Source of the DNA: Desulfurellales bacterium
GTDB lineage: Bacteria > Campylobacterota_A > Desulfurellia > Desulfurellales > Hippeaceae
Length of the DNA: 39,309 nt
Reading direction: 5' to 3'
Assembly: GCA_027045065.1 (NCBI GenBank)
Contig: JALUBE010000026.1
Location: 1-39,309 of the forward strand
Positions 15,102 to 24,450 of the stretch are shown piece after piece; within the stretch, counting starts at the first letter, position 1; every line of letters begins with the position of its first letter. The translations under genes and the position numbers were made by a program. The notes beneath the pieces are model-generated. The model made no database searches, was not told where the DNA came from, and was given only the letters and a program-made list of their open reading frames with translations.

Positions 15102-16067
15102 TTACGCATCAGTTATCTTAAAATCGTGTTTATACTCATTCGGATCGCTTAAAACGCCAAAGCCTTTTCTTTCTACGGCCTTTAACAACTCTGAGTTACG
15201 TGAAAAGAACCTAACGCCAACACCTTTCTTTGTAAGTTCGTATGCAAGGTGCACAAAAATCTCAAGGTTTTCCCTATTCTCTACTAAAAAGAGTGCCTTT
15301 TTTGGAACCTCGTCTATCCTTATCTGATGAACGTCACTGTTAATGTCCATCAGCTCAGGCTTTTCAATCAAAAGCTCAACAACGTTTTTGAGGTTAAAAA
15401 CCTTTCCTTTAGACTCAAGCTCATAAAAAACGGCATTCATAAACTCCAAATCCGCAATCGTGTCAACAGAAATTCTGTGACTTACTTTGTAAAAAATGTC
15501 TTCGCATTCAATACAATCTATTTTAAATAGATCACTCCTCAAACCCACAACGGGAAAATGGTGCTCCCTCAAGTTTGGCTTATCAGACAGTTTATCCGCT
15601 AACTCCCAACACTTTCTCCTATAAACACCAACACTTGAATGTATAGGATATCGACCATCTTTTTCACAAAAACCAACATAGTCAAGCTCTTTGTTTACTA
15701 AAATCTTCTCTATACGCTTTGCTACGGCTTCAGGCCAAACCAGCGGACAATCGCCGCTCACCAGAACCGGAATATCAGCTTCAAACTCGATAGCCGCTTT
15801 AGTCAATCTACCCACTACATCGTTAACATCACCCTTATACCAAAAGAGCTTTACACCGTTCTCCTTTGCCACATCAATTAATGGCCTATTATCTTCTTCA
15901 TCTACCGTTGCAATAACAATATCGTCCAAATACCCTACCTGCTTGATAAAATGGATTGTCCAATCGATCATTCGTCTGTCGCCAATTGTCTTTAGGTGTT
16001 TATTAGGTAATCTTGATGAAGATAGTCTTGCTACAATAAATGCTACAACACGCTCATCTTTCACCAT
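15102..16067 (-). CDS. SpsF-like cytidylyltransferase/glycan nucleotidyltransferase with C-terminal extension
   Basis: The first 240 residues match the SpsF/acylneuraminate-type nucleotidyltransferase family: VVAFIVARLSSSRLPNKHL with the nucleotide-binding Arg-rich loop, DDIVIATVDEEDN and VLVSGDCPLVWPE. Such enzymes activate sugars or acidic sugars for surface polysaccharide or flagellin glycosylation. The protein is 321 aa from the ATG at 16067. The track's GTG at 16076 is less likely because the ATG overlaps the SDR stop and has GGTGG upstream. About 80 residues at the C terminus (KALFLVENRENLEIFVHLAYE, ending KHDFKITDA) are extra and I cannot assign them; they look like an alpha/beta fragment. 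It is the last gene of a three-gene cassette. The actual sugar is unknown. Confidence 0.8.
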   Translation of the reverse strand: MVKDERVVAFIVARLSSSRLPNKHLKTIGDRRMIDWTIHFIKQVGYLDDIVIATVDEEDNRPLIDVAKENGVKLFWYKGDVNDVVGRLTKAAIEFEADIPVLVSGDCPLVWPEAVAKRIEKILVNKELDYVGFCEKDGRYPIHSSVGVYRRKCWELADKLSDKPNLREHHFPVVGLRSDLFKIDCIECEDIFYKVSHRISVDTIADLEFMNAVFYELESKGKVFNLKNVVELLIEKPELMDINSDVHQIRIDEVPKKALFLVENRENLEIFVHLAYELTKKGVGVRFFSRNSELLKAVERKGFGVLSDPNEYKHDFKITDA

Positions 16068-16831
16068 ATCGTCCACCCACCATCCACAACCAAGTTATGG
16101 CCCGTTATAAATGAGGATGCATCACTCGCCAAAAGAACCAAAGCACCTTTCAAATCCTCGGGTTTTCCTATCCTCCCCAAGGGAACCTTGTCCTTCAAAT
16201 TCTCAACAAACCCTTCAAACTTTTGAATGGATTGAGAGGGGAAAGGACCTGGCGATATGCAGTTTACCCTGATGCCCCTCTCTGCTAACTTAACGGCATA
16301 GTAGCGTGTCATCTGTATCACACCGGACTTTGCAACGCCATAATGTGGCGGGCTCATAAATTGCTCAAAACCATTGTAAATCCTAAAGTCTGGAGAGACA
16401 ATGCCATACATAGACGAAATATTTACTATGCTCGAGCCCTTTTTCATATAAGGTACAACCTCTCTAATACATCTAAAAACACTATTCAAAACGCCATTGA
16501 TACCCCTATTCCACGTCTCATCGTCCATAAACGCCGATCCAAAATCAAGCGACACGGCATTGTTAACTAAAACGTCAATTTTGCCATTTTCATTGTAAAC
16601 CACTGAAAAAGCCTCTTTAATGGAATTTGTATCTAAAATGTCAAGATAAACAAATTCAACATTTTCTGTATCTTTAAATACATCTAAAAACCTATCCCTG
16701 TTCCTTGCTGCAACATAGACCTTGGCTTGCGCTTCATGTAAAGCCTCAACAAATGCCCTACCCAAGTGACCGTATCCGCCTGTAACTATAGCAACCTTAC
16801 CATCAAGCTTGAAACTATCCAAAACGTTCAA
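16061..16831 (-). CDS. Short-chain dehydrogenase/reductase (PtmA-like), TTG start
   Basis: This 256-aa classical SDR has the NAD(P) motif TGGYGHLG (residues 17-24), LVNNAV, the catalytic Ser region IVNISSMYG and the YxxxK motif in PPHYGVAKSG. It ends in the usual SPGP and GHNLVVDGGW. The order with an SpsF-like transferase resembles PtmA-type genes in flagellin or LPS sugar clusters, a link drawn from context. The start is a TTG at 16831: there is no nearby ATG, and GGAGG lies six bases upstream with the stop of the preceding gene between them. The stop overlaps the SpsF-like ATG. A general sugar or steroid-type dehydrogenase is the fallback call. Confidence 0.85.
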   Translation of the reverse strand: MNVLDSFKLDGKVAIVTGGYGHLGRAFVEALHEAQAKVYVAARNRDRFLDVFKDTENVEFVYLDILDTNSIKEAFSVVYNENGKIDVLVNNAVSLDFGSAFMDDETWNRGINGVLNSVFRCIREVVPYMKKGSSIVNISSMYGIVSPDFRIYNGFEQFMSPPHYGVAKSGVIQMTRYYAVKLAERGIRVNCISPGPFPSQSIQKFEGFVENLKDKVPLGRIGKPEDLKGALVLLASDASSFITGHNLVVDGGWTIW

Positions 16832-17838: not shown

Positions 17839-17865
17839 TTGATTTTTTTTAAAAAACGATATATT
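17839..17865 (+). promoter_or_regulatory. Candidate promoter of pruA
   Basis: TTGATT (17839-17844) and TATATT (17860-17865) are 15 bases apart in AT-rich sequence containing a TTTTTTAAAAAA tract. The short spacer makes this tentative. Confidence 0.35.
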
Positions 17866-17905
17866 GTTCATAATAATGAAAAGATTTTTTAAAAGGAGGT
17901 GTACC

Positions 17906-19540
17906 ATGCGCAATACCATAGCAAAAGTACCGTATCCGGTAAATGAGCCTGTTTACTCTTATGCTCCAGGAACAGAGGAGAGGGAGAAGCTTAAAGAAGC
18001 TATTAAGGAAATCAAATCTAAACAAATAGAAATCCCTCTAATTATTGGCGGCGAGGAAATAAAGACAGGTAAAACTCAAGAGATAATAGAGCCGCACAAT
18101 ACAAAATCAGTACTTGGCGTATTCCACAAACCAACAGAAAAAGAAGTAAAAATGGCTATTGAGGCGGCTATTGCGGCTCAGAAAAAATGGAGAGAATACG
18201 ATTGGATAGATAGAGCTGCTATCTTTATGAAAGCAGCAGAACTTTTGAGCAAAAAGTATAGATTTTTAATCAATGCAGCCACTATGCTCACAATGAGTAA
18301 AAATGTTTTTCAGGCAGAAATTGACTCGGCGTGTGAATTAATTGACTTCTTAAGATTTAACGTCTATTACATGCAAAAAATTTATGAAGATCAGCCACTT
18401 CATTCTCCTTACGGCACATGGAACATCATGCAATACAGACCATTAGAAGGCTTCATCTTTGCCGTACCACCGTTTAACTTCGTTTCTATCTCTGGAAATC
18501 TACCAACGGCTCCTGCAATAATGGGTAACGTTGTAGTATGGAAACCAGCTGCAAACAGTGTTTATGCACCATATATCTTCATGAAAGTATTGCAAGAAGC
18601 AGGTTTACCCGATGGAGTTATTAATTTTATACCCGGGGACGGTCCAGATGTAGGTCCATATGTATTTTCATCTGAACACTTTGCAGGCTTACACTTCACA
18701 GGTAGCGTAAAAACATTCCAGTGGATGTGGAAAACTATAGGAGACAATATAACTAAGTACAAAACATATCCAAGAATCGTAGGTGAAACAGGCGGAAAGG
18801 ACTATATATTTGCCCACAAATCGGCTAATAGAAAAAAACTCATTACCGCAATTGTAAGGGGAGCCTACGAATATCAAGGTCAAAAATGTTCCGCCGTCTC
18901 AAGATTATACCTGCCAAAGAGCATGTGGAACGAGATAAAAGACGAGCTCTTTGCAGAGATCGATAAAATCAAAATGGGTTCTCCTGAAGATTTCACAAAC
19001 TTCATGAACGCCGTAATAGATAGAAAAGCTTTCGACAAAATAGTGAAATACATAGAGTATGCAAAAACCGCATCTGATGCAGAAATAGTTAAAGGCGGTG
19101 GATACGACGACTCCGTAGGTTATTTTATTGAGCCAACGATAATCTTAACGGAGAATCCACACTTTAAGACGATGGAAGAGGAGATCTTCGGTCCTGTGGT
19201 AACCGTATATCCTTACGATGATGATAAATACGTTGAAACACTACATCTATGCGACGAGACAAGTCCATACGGTTTGACAGGCTCTATCTTTAGCGAGGAC
19301 AGGGATGCAACAAGGGTAGCCATCGACATACTCGAGAACAGTGCAGGAAACTTCTATATAAACGATAAACCAACAGGTGCCGTAGTGGGTCAGCAACCAT
19401 TCGGAGGTTCAAGGGCAAGCGGAACAAACGATAAGGCTGGAAGCCATTTGAACCTCTTAAGGTGGGTAACACCAAGGGCAATAAAAGAAAACTTCTTGTC
19501 TCCAGAAAACTTTGAATATCCATTTATGAAAGAGGAGTAA
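17906..19540 (+). CDS. pruA: 1-pyrroline-5-carboxylate dehydrogenase (ALDH4-type)
   Basis: This NAD-dependent aldehyde dehydrogenase oxidises glutamate semialdehyde, in equilibrium with pyrroline-5-carboxylate, to glutamate in proline breakdown. The protein is 544 aa from the ATG at 17906, which follows AAGGAGGTG; this matches the length of ALDH4/PruA proteins. The track's TTG at 17864 adds an implausible MFIIMKRFFKRRCT. Key residues are the general base E294 (GETGGKD) and the nucleophile C328 (GQKCSAVSR). The NAD-binding stretch FTGSVKTF, PFNFVSISGNLPTAPA and the C-terminal PFGGSRASGTNDKAG are also as in PruA. The proline dehydrogenase gene follows after four bases. Confidence 0.95.
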   Translation: MRNTIAKVPYPVNEPVYSYAPGTEEREKLKEAIKEIKSKQIEIPLIIGGEEIKTGKTQEIIEPHNTKSVLGVFHKPTEKEVKMAIEAAIAAQKKWREYDWIDRAAIFMKAAELLSKKYRFLINAATMLTMSKNVFQAEIDSACELIDFLRFNVYYMQKIYEDQPLHSPYGTWNIMQYRPLEGFIFAVPPFNFVSISGNLPTAPAIMGNVVVWKPAANSVYAPYIFMKVLQEAGLPDGVINFIPGDGPDVGPYVFSSEHFAGLHFTGSVKTFQWMWKTIGDNITKYKTYPRIVGETGGKDYIFAHKSANRKKLITAIVRGAYEYQGQKCSAVSRLYLPKSMWNEIKDELFAEIDKIKMGSPEDFTNFMNAVIDRKAFDKIVKYIEYAKTASDAEIVKGGGYDDSVGYFIEPTIILTENPHFKTMEEEIFGPVVTVYPYDDDKYVETLHLCDETSPYGLTGSIFSEDRDATRVAIDILENSAGNFYINDKPTGAVVGQQPFGGSRASGTNDKAGSHLNLLRWVTPRAIKENFLSPENFEYPFMKEE

Positions 19541-19544
19541 AAAT

Positions 19545-20447
19545 ATGTCTATCTTCAACAAAAGTGTAAGCATATTTATAGATAAAGTACCACCGGGCGC
19601 CATTGCGCCCTTTGCTAAACGATACATTGCAGGCCCTGAATTAACCGATGCCATTGAGCTTACAAAGAAGCTAAATTCTCAGGGTGCCATGACCACAATA
19701 GATGTACTTGGCGAATTTGTAAACACAAAAGAAGAAACAATTTACTACAGAAACTTAGCTATTAAGGTGCTCGAAGCAATTGACAAAAACAAATTAGACG
19801 CCAACTTATCTTTAAAACTCACACAAATGGGCTTAAAGCTATCAAAAGCTCTATGTTTAGATAACATAGAAAAGATCTTTGAGAAAGCAAAAGAGCTGGG
19901 TATTTTTGTAAGGATAGATATGGAGGACTCAACCTGCACAGATGACACATTAGAAATTTATAGAAACTATAGAGACAAATACAACATAGGAACCGTATTA
20001 CAAGCTTACATGAGGAGAACAATAGATGACATAAACAAACTATCAGACGGAAGACTCAACTTTAGGTTGTGCAAAGGTATATACGACGAGCCGAGGGAAA
20101 TTGCTTACAAAGACAAGGAAATCATAAGGAGCAATTATATATGGTGTTTAGAGGAACTTCTAATTAAAAAAGCTTACGTGGGAATCGCGACACACGATGA
20201 ATACTTGGTTTTCCACGCTGAAAGATTACTAAAAAAATATGGATACAAACGGGACGAATACGAGTTCCAAATGTTGCTTGGCGTTGATGAACAGCTCCGC
20301 TCAATAATCATAAACAGGGGCCATAGATTAAGGGTTTACGTTCCTTTTGGCAAGGATTGGTTGCCTTACTCAATCAGAAGACTCAAAGAGAATCCCAACA
20401 TTATGAAATCGGCCATAGAGGGATACATAAAGAAATATCAAAGATAG
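19545..20447 (+). CDS. Proline dehydrogenase
   Basis: This is a monofunctional FAD proline dehydrogenase of 300 aa with a TIM barrel like the PutA core. It oxidises proline to pyrroline-5-carboxylate and passes electrons to the quinone pool at the membrane. Family marks are GAMTTIDVLGEFV, VRIDMEDSTCTDDTLEIY, VLQAYMRRTIDDI, LCKGIYDEPREIAY, IATHDEYLVFHAERLL, EFQMLLGVDEQLR and the C-terminal VYVPFGKDWLPYSIRRL. The ATG at 19545 follows pruA by four bases, with GAGGAG at the end of pruA as binding site. The two genes therefore form a complete proline-to-glutamate operon with separate enzymes instead of a fused PutA. Confidence 0.94.
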   Translation: MSIFNKSVSIFIDKVPPGAIAPFAKRYIAGPELTDAIELTKKLNSQGAMTTIDVLGEFVNTKEETIYYRNLAIKVLEAIDKNKLDANLSLKLTQMGLKLSKALCLDNIEKIFEKAKELGIFVRIDMEDSTCTDDTLEIYRNYRDKYNIGTVLQAYMRRTIDDINKLSDGRLNFRLCKGIYDEPREIAYKDKEIIRSNYIWCLEELLIKKAYVGIATHDEYLVFHAERLLKKYGYKRDEYEFQMLLGVDEQLRSIIINRGHRLRVYVPFGKDWLPYSIRRLKENPNIMKSAIEGYIKKYQR

Positions 20448-20465
20448 CCCTGCCTCACGGCGGGG
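20448..20465. terminator. Possible shared hairpin between convergent proline dehydrogenase and GNAT genes
   Basis: CCCTGCC-TCAC-GGCGGGG forms a 7-bp stem with one G-T wobble, directly after the proline dehydrogenase stop and across the stop of the GNAT gene. The following sequence (TTATCCCCTTTT on +) is only weakly T-rich, so termination may be inefficient. Confidence 0.35.
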
Positions 20466-21567
20466 TTATCCCCTTTTCATAGATCCTGTAAGTCTTGTAG
20501 TGTTCAGCACCCATCTTCAGAATGGGCTTATTGATGGCATCGTTGTCTTCCAACGTCCAAGAAAGCTCACCGCCCTTTCCGCCACGTTTTTCAACCACTT
20601 CGAAGCTTTTTATATAAAGTAAAAGATCAACACCCATCTTCCTACATTCTGGCAAAACACCGAGCGTAATCAACCTATAGTTGTCTATCTTTTTTAACCT
20701 GTACAGGGCTTTTAATGCATTAAAAGGTGTTATCTTTCCCCCCAAACCCTTAAGTGCTTGATTGAAATCCGGCACTATTGCTGAAAAACCACAGGGTTTG
20801 CCTTCTCTATAAGCAAAGATCACAAGTTCTTCAGGCACCATTGTTTTAAAATCCTCAACGCCGTATCTAAACTCCTCATATGTCGGTGGCACAAAACCCC
20901 AGTTGTTCTTCCACGCCTCACAGTACAAGTAGTGGATCGTTTTTACATCCTCTTCGAAGCTCTTACGAGAAAAATGCCTCAGCTCAATGCCAAATTTTTT
21001 TTGAACATAACTTGCAAGCTTTAGCAACTTCTCTTTGGGTTTGTTGGCAGTTGTCAGGTAGAAGGCGTATAAATCCTTCACCTTTTTAAAACCATATCCC
21101 TCGATCAAATCTATATAATAAGCCCTGTTGTATGGCATCATAAAAACAGGCTCTTGAAAAAAGCCCTTAACAAGCAATCCACTGATATCGTTCATGGATG
21201 GGCTAATAGGCCCCCTAATCACATTGAGGCCGTTTTCGTACAAAAACCCTTCAGCCTTTTCAAAAAGCAAAGAAGCCACATCTTTATCATTAATGCACTC
21301 AAAGAAACCAAAGAAACCGACCTTGTCATTGTGGAATTCATTGTGGCGCTTATTGACAATTACCGCAATCCTTCCCACAGGTTTTTCGTCTTCGTATGCA
21401 ATGAACAAAGCCCTTTTAGCATACCTATAAAACGGGTTGTGCTTATCATCTATCATTTTCTTTTCTTCTTCAATTAAAGGCTGTACGTATAATCGGTCAT
21501 CTTTGTAAAAAAGAGGAGCAATCCTAACGAAAAGGTCAAGATCTTCTGTTTGCTCAACACGTATCAT
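20455..21567 (-). CDS. Double-GNAT N-acyltransferase, candidate bacterial ceramide synthase (YghO-like)
   Basis: This 370-aa protein has two GNAT-like halves, about residues 1-175 and 190-365. The first contains [19 protein letters not shown] and [20 protein letters not shown]. The second has the acyl-CoA-binding loop type [16 protein letters not shown] and the end [15 protein letters not shown]. This pattern is that of a group typified by E. coli YghO. The ceramide synthase described in Caulobacter is also a GNAT-fold N-acyltransferase. The start overlaps the stop of the SPT-like gene as ATGA, so the two are translationally coupled. The idea that it N-acylates the product of that enzyme is inference from fold and context; another lipid or amine acylation is possible. 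Confidence 0.7.
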
Positions 21568-22745
21568 ATTACGCCTAATTCTTTTCCTACTTTGTAGAGC
21601 TTATCCAAAGCAAAGTCTATCTGATCAAACGTATGTGTAGCCATTAAGCTCAATCTAATTAAAGCCTTATTCGGCGGGACAGCAGGAGACACAACGGGGT
21701 TTACAAACAAACCCTCGTCAAAGAGCATACGCCTCATCCTCAAAACCTTTTCGTCATCGCCTATAACCAAAGGAATAATGGGTGTGCAGCTTGTTCCAGT
21801 GTCATAGCCCATCTCTTGAACACCCTTTCTCATCCTGTCAGTGTTTGCCCACAGTTTATCTATTAATTCAGGTTCATTCTCCATAATATCAAGGGCAGCC
21901 AAAACCGCTGCTGTGGAGGCTGGGGTTATACTTGCTGAAAAAATGAGACTTCTCGCAAAGTGTCTCAAGTAATCGATAACCTCCTTATCCGCCGCTAAAA
22001 ATCCTCCCAAAGAGGCAAATGATTTACTGAACGTTCCCATTATTATGTCAACGTCATCTTCCAAACCAAAGTGGTTTGCTGTACCCCTGCCGTTTTTACC
22101 CAAAACGCCAAAGGAATGGGCGTCATCCACCATTAAACGCGCATTGTATTTCTTTTTCAGTTTGACCATTTCGGGTAGATTTGCTATGTCTCCATCCATG
22201 CTGTAAACACCATCGACCACGATGAGCTTTCCCGCGTCAAACTCTAAGGATGAAAGAACCTTCTCCAATGATTCCATGTCATTATGTAAAAACCTCTTAA
22301 CCGTTCCGTAGGACAGTCTCGAACCATCAACGATGCTTGCATGATCAGACTTATCCAAGATCACATATTCGCCCTTACCCACAAGACCCGCTATAGCACC
22401 TAAATTGGCTTGGAATCCTGTGCTAAACAGAATTGCGTCCTCTTTGTTGACAAAAGCCGCAAGTCTTTCCTCTAACTCCTCATGTATATCCAACGTACCG
22501 TTTAAGAACCTCGAACCTGCGCATGCCGTGCCGTATTTATCAATTGCCTTTTTTGCAGCCTCTTTTACCTTTGGATGAACGGTCAAACCAAGGTAGCTGT
22601 TTGAACCAAGCATCAAAACCCTTCTGCCGTTAATTATGACCTCTGTGTCCTGTTCTGAAGATATGGGCTGAAAGTAAGGATATAATCCTGCCTTTCTTGT
22701 TTCTTCTGCCGTCTTAAAGTTATAACATTTATCAAAAAGATCCAT
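21564..22745 (-). CDS. Alpha-oxoamine synthase, probable serine palmitoyltransferase
   Basis: This 393-aa PLP enzyme belongs to the alpha-oxoamine synthase family (SPT, KBL, BioF, HemA), which condenses an amino acid with an acyl thioester. The PLP lysine is K241 in [14 protein letters not shown]135 ([10 protein letters not shown]) and D207/H210 (MVDDAH) are the cofactor residues. The N-terminal [19 protein letters not shown], the [18 protein letters not shown] stretch and [13 protein letters not shown] are close to bacterial serine palmitoyltransferases such as that of Bacteroides, as I recall that sequence. They are less like KBL or BioF. SPT makes 3-ketosphinganine, the first sphingolipid step. 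It has its own promoter and is coupled to the GNAT gene. KBL or BioF-like activity remains possible. Confidence 0.8.
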
Positions 22746-22774
22746 ACTGCCTTCTCCCCTTTAAATGATTTTTA

Positions 22775-22803
22775 CTTCTATAAAAAAAATGCCTTCTTGT
22801 CAA
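22775..22803 (-). promoter_or_regulatory. Candidate sigma70 promoter of the SPT-GNAT operon
   Basis: On the minus strand a perfect TTGACA (22803-22798) is 17 bases from TAGAAG (22780-22775), with TATAGA two bases closer as an alternative -10. The leader would be about 22 bases, with a GGGAGAAGG site before the ATG. Confidence 0.5.
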
Positions 22804-22815: not shown

Positions 22816-24450
22816 TTAACTTGAAGTTAGTTCCACCTGTCTTGAGTAAATTGCCCTATGCACTTTAGCGTCTTCAGACTCATTCAAGCCAAAATACTCA
22901 AACCTCACGGTGTAAATGCCGCCGTCATCGATAACATCAGATACTACAGCTGGTATTGATATAACCTCATTCTTGGGTTTTGCCTTAATCAAGACCGTAT
23001 CTCCAATTGAGAAAACGGCATCCTTGGATTTTGCAAGTAAGGACTTCGTGCCAAATATACTTGTCCTCATCTTCACAACCTTGTTAACATTCTGAGCCGA
23101 AGTCTTTTGCATGAACTTCAAAGGCACAACCAAAATATCAAACTCCCAATAGACCTCTAAGGGTTTATCCTCTATATCGCTCTTTTCAACTATTGATAAA
23201 TTAACAACATCCTCAGACGCGCTCAGCACCTCTGCCACAATATCCATAATCTTCGACACAACTGGCACCTGCATTCTAACCCTGTCTCTAAAGCCCAGCT
23301 TCTTACCCTCTGGTGTAGCCAAACTTATGCCCAAATTACTGCCCGCAGAGTACTCAACAACACCTTTGACCAAATTTAAATCTCCATTCTTGTAAAAAAT
23401 CAAGATAACTGGTTTTCCACTCATTATTCCCCTAAAATCGGTTTTTCTCTCATATAGCGTCTCAACTATCGGTATAGCTATATCTACAATCTCCTCATCA
23501 AATGCCTCGCCCTTTAATCTCTTCAGGTAATGAACAATCTGATCGACCTTCAAGCCCGGCCTATCGGGTCTGTCCGTATGCAAACCGTCAACTAACTCGC
23601 AAATTGCCAAAACCTTTGATTCAACGGGGATTTCATCGCCCTTCAAACCGTAATATCCCTTACCATCAATCCTCTCGTGGTGATAGAGAGCTATATTGAC
23701 GATATCTTCTAAAAAAGGGTTGTGCAAAAATATATGTTTTAAGTTCAAGGGATGACTTTTTACAAGTTCAAGCTCTTCATCTGTAAGCTTATCCCTTTTA
23801 TCCAATATATCGTTGGGTATCCAAATTTCGCCTACATCGTGAATCAAGGCTGCAAAGTAAATGTTTTTGATCTTTTGCTCATCAAACCCCATACTCTCGG
23901 ATATCTTAACAGCCAAATCTGCAACCCTGAACGAATGGTAGAACGTTCTTGGCCTAATGGTTTTAATCAAGTTCAAGGCGTTTAAACAAATAAATCTCCT
24001 TGAAACCTCATTTAAAATGGATAGATGCACCTTGGGTAATTCATGGCTCATCTTGAACATTAATCTATCGGCTAATTCCTTTGTCTCATCCGTAATAAAG
24101 GGTAAATCTGTGAGTAATTCTAAAAAGCCAATCAATTGGCTGCCCACATAGATCTTTTTTACAAACAAGGAACTTTCCGTTCCAAAGCCCTCATACAAAA
24201 ACGGATAACTACTCTCAATCCCACCTGTTATCTCGAATTCATCCTTTTTCTTAAGTAAATCCCCGAAATGCTCCGTAACAAAGAGCTTTAAGCCCTCAAA
24301 CTCCTTTAAAAAACCCTTCTCTGAGTCATAGCAGAAATATAGGAAGTGCTGATTGTCGTTCAAAATAAAAAACAAGCTCACCCTACACTTAACGTTAAAA
24401 TCCTTCAGTTCGTCTAATAAAATTTTTCTTATCCCTTCTAAATTTTCCAT
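22816..24450 (-). CDS. GAF-like/HD-GYP phosphodiesterase with PilZ-like C terminus
   Basis: This 544-aa protein is predicted to degrade c-di-GMP. Residues 1-140 look like a divergent GAF-type sensor. The HD-GYP domain (about 160-345) has the HD pair in ALIHDVGEIWIP (H204, D205) and HHERIDGKGYYGLKGDEIP (257-275), where the usual GYP is GYY. The C-terminal 355-540 resembles a YcgR/PilZ module (NLGISLATPEGKKLGFRDRVRMQV, then VRFEYFGLNESEDAKVHRAIYSRQVEL), but I see no clean RxxxR and DxSxxG pair, so c-di-GMP binding by this part is doubtful. No membrane segment is seen. The ATG lacks a ribosome binding site and lies just after a predicted promoter, so the mRNA may be leaderless. Confidence 0.88.
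   Translation of the reverse strand: MENLEGIRKILLDELKDFNVKCRVSLFFILNDNQHFLYFCYDSEKGFLKEFEGLKLFVTEHFGDLLKKKDEFEITGGIESSYPFLYEGFGTESSLFVKKIYVGSQLIGFLELLTDLPFITDETKELADRLMFKMSHELPKVHLSILNEVSRRFICLNALNLIKTIRPRTFYHSFRVADLAVKISESMGFDEQKIKNIYFAALIHDVGEIWIPNDILDKRDKLTDEELELVKSHPLNLKHIFLHNPFLEDIVNIALYHHERIDGKGYYGLKGDEIPVESKVLAICELVDGLHTDRPDRPGLKVDQIVHYLKRLKGEAFDEEIVDIAIPIVETLYERKTDFRGIMSGKPVILIFYKNGDLNLVKGVVEYSAGSNLGISLATPEGKKLGFRDRVRMQVPVVSKIMDIVAEVLSASEDVVNLSIVEKSDIEDKPLEVYWEFDILVVPLKFMQKTSAQNVNKVVKMRTSIFGTKSLLAKSKDAVFSIGDTVLIKAKPKNEVISIPAVVSDVIDDGGIYTVRFEYFGLNESEDAKVHRAIYSRQVELTSS

Follow-up and report, generated by a model that had tools for sequence, protein, structure and literature searches.

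A predicted two-gene ceramide operon in the Desulfurellia, a lineage of thermophilic sulfur reducers

The spt–bcerS locus

The DNA analysed here, which we call the window, is the whole 39,309-nucleotide contig C26 of a 1.53-Mb draft MAG (88.5% complete, 4.6% contaminated) of a thermophilic, sulfur-reducing Desulfurellales vent bacterium. Among named relatives, the closest is a Hippea sp. MAG, whose homologues of the two proteins of interest share 99% (synthase) and 96% (GNAT) identity with those of the window. Both open-reading frames were confirmed on the minus strand as described in an earlier note made from the letters alone, and the overlap which that note had seen between the synthase stop and the GNAT start is an ATGA common to both genes (Table 1), suggesting that they are translationally coupled. 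The terminator-like stem overlaps the bcerS stop, and because our pattern scan did not report the promoter-like TTGACA-17-TAGAAG, we treat the latter as weak evidence.

Table 1. Features of the predicted spt–bcerS operon in the window.
Feature	Position	Strand	Basis
spt, predicted serine palmitoyltransferase (SPT) of Bacteroidota (CFB) type, 393 aa	21564..22745	-	NF047600, PDB identity, tree
bcerS, predicted tandem-GNAT N-acyltransferase of the bacterial ceramide synthase family (YghO/CC_1154), 370 aa	20455..21567	-	homology, fold
ATGA common to spt stop and bcerS start	21564..21567	-	sequence
spt leader with ribosome-binding site AAGGGGAGAAGG 5' of the ATG	22746..22803	-	sequence
Promoter-like TTGACA-17-TAGAAG in the spt leader	starting 22803	-	by-eye reading
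Terminator-like stem (12 pairs) where bcerS and the proline dehydrogenase gene converge	20443..20470	.	+ strand scan

The pair converges with a P5C dehydrogenase and proline dehydrogenase gene pair (window 17864-20447), which most relatives compared at the family level retain at its side. An HD-domain gene (window 22816-24450) lies 70 bases upstream of spt on the same strand and was considered as an operon member; it is absent from that site in H. maritima and other relatives, and since it is kept next to spt in the closest relatives only, it probably stands outside the operon.

The synthase groups with serine palmitoyltransferases

The best match of the synthase among family models was NF047600, the NCBIfam model of Bacteroidota-type SPT, at 633.7 bits, 6 bits short of its curated cut-off of 640, whilst the next SPT model scored 428, the KBL-type model 408 and BioF 404. 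Against the PDB, the Sphingobacterium SPT led with 517 bits, followed by a bifunctional BioF/KBL enzyme at 317 and a cysteate acyltransferase (28eh) at 266. The alignment with the Sphingobacterium enzyme (3a2b/8guh) is gapless over 387 residues at 59% identity, and residues H135, D207, H210, T238, K241 and R364, which we take to be the PLP lysine and residues with substrate-binding or catalytic roles, correspond to H138, D210, H213, T241, K244 and R367 of that SPT. The SPT-like character noted at first reading is thus borne out by model score, alignment and tree.

The earlier note had held that placement inside the KBL or BioF clades would speak against its reading. In a tree of 32 alpha-oxoamine synthases, all SPTs including that of the window formed one clade with 100/100 support, outside KBL, BioF and HemA, and the Desulfurellia synthases adjoined the Bacteroidota SPTs (100/99). 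In approximately unbiased (AU) tests, trees in which the Desulfurellia synthases were forced into KBL (p 2e-42) or into a BioF-type grouping (p 1e-61 and 5e-6) were rejected. On these grounds the 393-aa protein is almost certainly a serine palmitoyltransferase of the Bacteroidota type.

That the enzyme might instead be a KBL or BioF serving threonine or biotin metabolism, with the GNAT a chance neighbour, is suggested by the single fold family that all these enzymes share and by our finding no second alpha-oxoamine synthase in the window's genome (MAG 88.5% complete). Besides the AU tests, three observations argue against it: several relatives carry this SPT together with a separate, further synthase placed with KBL or close to BioF, which implies that the two functions are kept apart in the lineage; the GNAT is coupled to the synthase across the phylum set (see below); and biotin synthase (bioB) was likewise not found in the 88.5% complete MAG, so that with neither bioB nor a second synthase in the genome a biotin role is unlikely. 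We give this alternative almost no weight.

A closer competitor is that the enzyme builds a related long-chain base on some amino acid in place of serine, such as alanine or glycine (giving 1-deoxy bases) or cysteate (giving capnine and sulfonolipids), with this base then acylated by the GNAT. Sulfur sustains the organism, the amino acid is not fixed by sequence alone, and in anoxic sulfidic water where SPT-bearing anaerobes occur, both 1-deoxyceramides and sulfur-containing ceramides abound (PMC11334938). However, the match to the serine-using Sphingobacterium SPT far exceeds that to the cysteate fatty acyltransferase (517 vs. 266 bits), and the compared catalytic residues match SPT, and we consider a non-serine substrate unlikely and L-serine the more probable one.

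The GNAT protein resembles bacterial ceramide synthases

The 370-aa protein aligned with E. coli YghO over its full length (residues 1-367; 32.9% identity, 200 bits), with the corresponding protein of the Rubrobacter spt-bcerS-cerR operon (37.6% identity) and with alphaproteobacterial cluster proteins over the whole length; these references are YghO and the alphaproteobacterial cluster members, the link to Caulobacter CC_1154 itself being through YghO. YghO is listed as an orthologue of CC_1154, which is needed for dihydroceramide synthesis (PMC9386255). In alphaproteobacteria and E. coli, the homologues are clustered with genes for SPT, ACP and transporters of the Lpt type. NCBIfam holds no curated model for this GNAT family, Pfam gives a generic GNAT only, and no sequence relatives were found in the PDB; the predicted structure (mean pLDDT 86.1, pTM 0.84) found its best PDB matches among tandem-GNAT enzymes at TM 0.6-0.7, in agreement with the first description of the protein as a double GNAT. 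The suggestion that it is of a type fitting bacterial ceramide synthase likewise gains from the homology to YghO, and we conclude that the protein is, by homology, almost certainly a bacterial ceramide synthase (bCerS).

The pair is conserved across the lineage

We compared a phylum set of 25 genomes, including a finished genome matching Hippea maritima. SPT was present in 23 and the GNAT in 22, with two genomes lacking both; every GNAT-positive genome had SPT (22/22), and in all 22 genomes with both genes, the one matching H. maritima among them, the two were adjacent. The 4-base overlap recurred in 18 of the 25 junctions measured. The genes flanking the pair change from lineage to lineage. 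As adjacency holds in 22/25 genomes and overlap in 18/25 junctions whilst the flanks differ, the arrangement is not due to chance. Identity to the window proteins drops with kinship, from 99 to 67% for SPT and from 96 to 48% for the GNAT, a trend that fits vertical descent from an ancestor of the group; the pair therefore appears to be vertically inherited in the Desulfurellia, an assessment based on this identity trend.

Beyond the phylum set, the same pair occurs in Zixibacteria and in a vent MAG. As an independent test, a search with the GNAT by itself returned seven distant genomes, all of which (7/7) carry an SPT (49-59% identity); the five without SPT near the GNAT all have one elsewhere (49-54% identity). 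These genomes include a Chlorobium MAG and several Bdellovibrionales-type MAGs.

A candidate reductase and other pathway parts

Ceramide synthesis in this organism would also need a ketone reductase. The earlier note had observed that no third enzyme is adjacent and that the only SDR of the window lies in a sugar cassette, and this holds: the SDR at 16061-16831, tried as CerR, is a classical SDR with no similarity to CerR (E about 8), and outside the window it accompanies the pair in the closest relative alone. We reject it as CerR and regard a KDSR role of the BT_0972 kind as a slight possibility.

The proposed search of the genome for a CerR homologue and a dedicated acyl carrier protein succeeded in its first part and failed in its second. 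Using the SPT-adjacent reductase of a Zixibacteria genome as query, we found one full-length CerR-like extended SDR in the window's own genome (G000, contig C54:5209-6123; E 3e-31), the next match being heptose-epimerase-like (E 7e-9). The C54 protein shares 26-29% identity with the SPT-adjacent CerRs of Rubrobacter, Sphingomonas, E. coli and Aureispira, and its neighbourhood is housekeeping (shikimate kinase, an HDOD protein and others). Each of the 25 genomes of the phylum set has exactly one such match, including G017 and G024, the two without an SPT match. In the reductase tree the protein was split from GalE and HldD (97/93), not from YbjS/YbjT-like SDRs. Because of this missing split and its presence in the two SPT-less genomes, we regard the C54 SDR as no more than a candidate for the ketone reductase.

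A dedicated acyl carrier protein (AcpR) was not found in the MAG (88.5% complete), in which a single PP-binding ORF was detected; a dedicated ACP is a trait of the Rhodobacteria-type systems, whereas the window SPT is of the Bacteroidota type. In an AasR search several AMP-binding proteins matched in part (best E 5e-22), with no clear orthologue among them. The genome also contains four CDP-alcohol phosphatidyltransferases by count. One contig (C146, L123:1444-2760) encodes an apparent nucleotidyltransferase-CDP-alcohol phosphatidyltransferase fusion of 438 aa, which resembles enzymes of inositol-phosphate solutes or of phosphoinositides and is possibly a headgroup gene or one of compatible-solute synthesis.

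Proposed pathway and comparison with known systems

Taken from the genes, the pair very probably constitutes a two-gene ceramide operon in which SPT and bCerS lead to 3-ketoceramide, with an unlinked SDR reducing it later. SPT would condense L-serine with a long-chain acyl thioester, either acyl-CoA or acyl carried on the housekeeping ACP, and so give 3-ketodihydrosphingosine. From this base and another acyl thioester, the coupled GNAT would form 3-ketoceramide by N-acylation on the cytoplasmic side, and the C54 extended SDR would then reduce the ketone to dihydroceramide. The substrates, the order of steps, the identity of the reductase and the presence of ceramide in the membrane are what we infer here. 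Acylation would directly follow condensation, an order that the coupling of spt to bcerS and the unlinked reductase would fit; the simplest model is that of Caulobacter, where SPT and then bCerS act in the cytoplasm to give 3-ketoceramide, which is reduced afterwards (PMC11087976). With one PP-binding ORF found, the donor would be acyl-CoA or a housekeeping acyl-ACP, and as palmitate and stearate both support growth of H. maritima (2011 genome paper), long-chain acyl thioesters should be available.

The window enzyme resembles the Bacteroidota/deltaproteobacterial SPT subgroup (3a2b/8guh; NF047600) in gapless identity, catalytic residues and common clade, but its gene is overlapped by bcerS, whereas of the Bacteroidota records compared the Parabacteroides SPT has no GNAT neighbour and the Aureispira GNAT lies 227 bases away. 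With the cluster of Caulobacter and E. coli BL21 (aasR, cerR, acpR, spt, cerS/yghO) the window's genome shares the SPT and N-acyltransferase families and the presence of a CerR-like SDR; it differs in that its SPT belongs to another subgroup, AcpR was not found, the cerR candidate is unlinked and bcerS stands in one transcription unit with spt. This last arrangement contrasts with the report that bacterial cerS never shares an operon with the de novo genes (PMC11324152).

A similar layout is seen in operons of Rubrobacter radiotolerans and Streptomyces sp. NBC_01001, where spt is likewise followed by a directly overlapping bcerS, although there the reductase is the third gene and in the Desulfurellia the candidate is elsewhere. 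The former lies on a plasmid (L022:4689-10281) and provides an actinomycete with a ceramide operon of three genes, spt-bcerS-cerR, after which comes a gene of the LTA-synthase family; the latter, also on a plasmid (L073:3944-8470), has overlapping genes for an SPT-like synthase, a GNAT, an NAD-epimerase and a condensation-domain protein. As the Streptomyces operon joins the same three genes to a condensation-domain gene, the module can serve specialised metabolism, and the window pair might by analogy make a long-chain alpha-aminoketone or N-acyl natural product and not a membrane lipid. Against this, no biosynthetic cluster surrounds the pair, which is near-universal and single-copy and seems to have been inherited vertically in a lineage whose genomes span 1-2 Mb, as is typical of core membrane metabolism; we judge a natural product very improbable and retain the ceramide operon as the preferred reading.

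Probable sphingolipids in the Desulfurellia

Bacterial sphingolipids were long thought rare. Genome surveys have since indicated sphingolipid potential in about 40 phyla (PMC11334938). In the literature that we searched, no relevant paper connected sphingolipids with Hippea or Desulfurella; according to the 2011 genome paper of H. maritima, chemotaxonomic data had not been published by then, and the membrane lipids of the lineage seem never to have been examined before. As far as this literature goes, the enzymes and the pathway are already known and it is the lineage that is new. Because the pair is kept across the whole lineage, bacteria of the Desulfurellia probably make sphingolipids, the ceramide genes being a lineage-wide, apparently vertically kept trait of an anaerobic thermophilic class with a cultured and sequenced type strain, and the prediction is directly testable in cultured H. 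maritima.

Sphingolipids have been proposed to tighten membranes under heat, and the hot shallow-vent sediments of Milos hold abundant phosphosphingolipids without a known producer, reaching up to 40% of bacterial lipids in shallow-vent sediments at 40-80 °C (PMC5572230). Tentatively, and as a possibility that we rate below even chances, sphingolipids may be an ancestral and near-universal membrane component of the Desulfurellia, made via the coupled spt-bcerS pair, and the group may be one source of these 40-80 °C phosphosphingolipids; the link to Milos is speculation.

Related genes in other genomes

Several distant genomes carried related genes in other arrangements. In the Chlorobium MAG, a small contig (L112:254-2704) bears SPT and a CerR-like gene in divergent orientation and a bcerS homologue lies elsewhere (L010), genes which suggest that green sulfur bacteria have a potential for ceramides. 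Besides one bcerS-type GNAT at L011, a MAG labelled Lysobacteraceae has a second directly after SPT (L113:269-2676). Plasmids of Priestia megaterium (L072:4001-5215) encode a synthase that shares 53% identity with the window SPT and falls inside the SPT clade; it has no adjoining GNAT, and acyltransferase and methyltransferase genes lie divergent from it.
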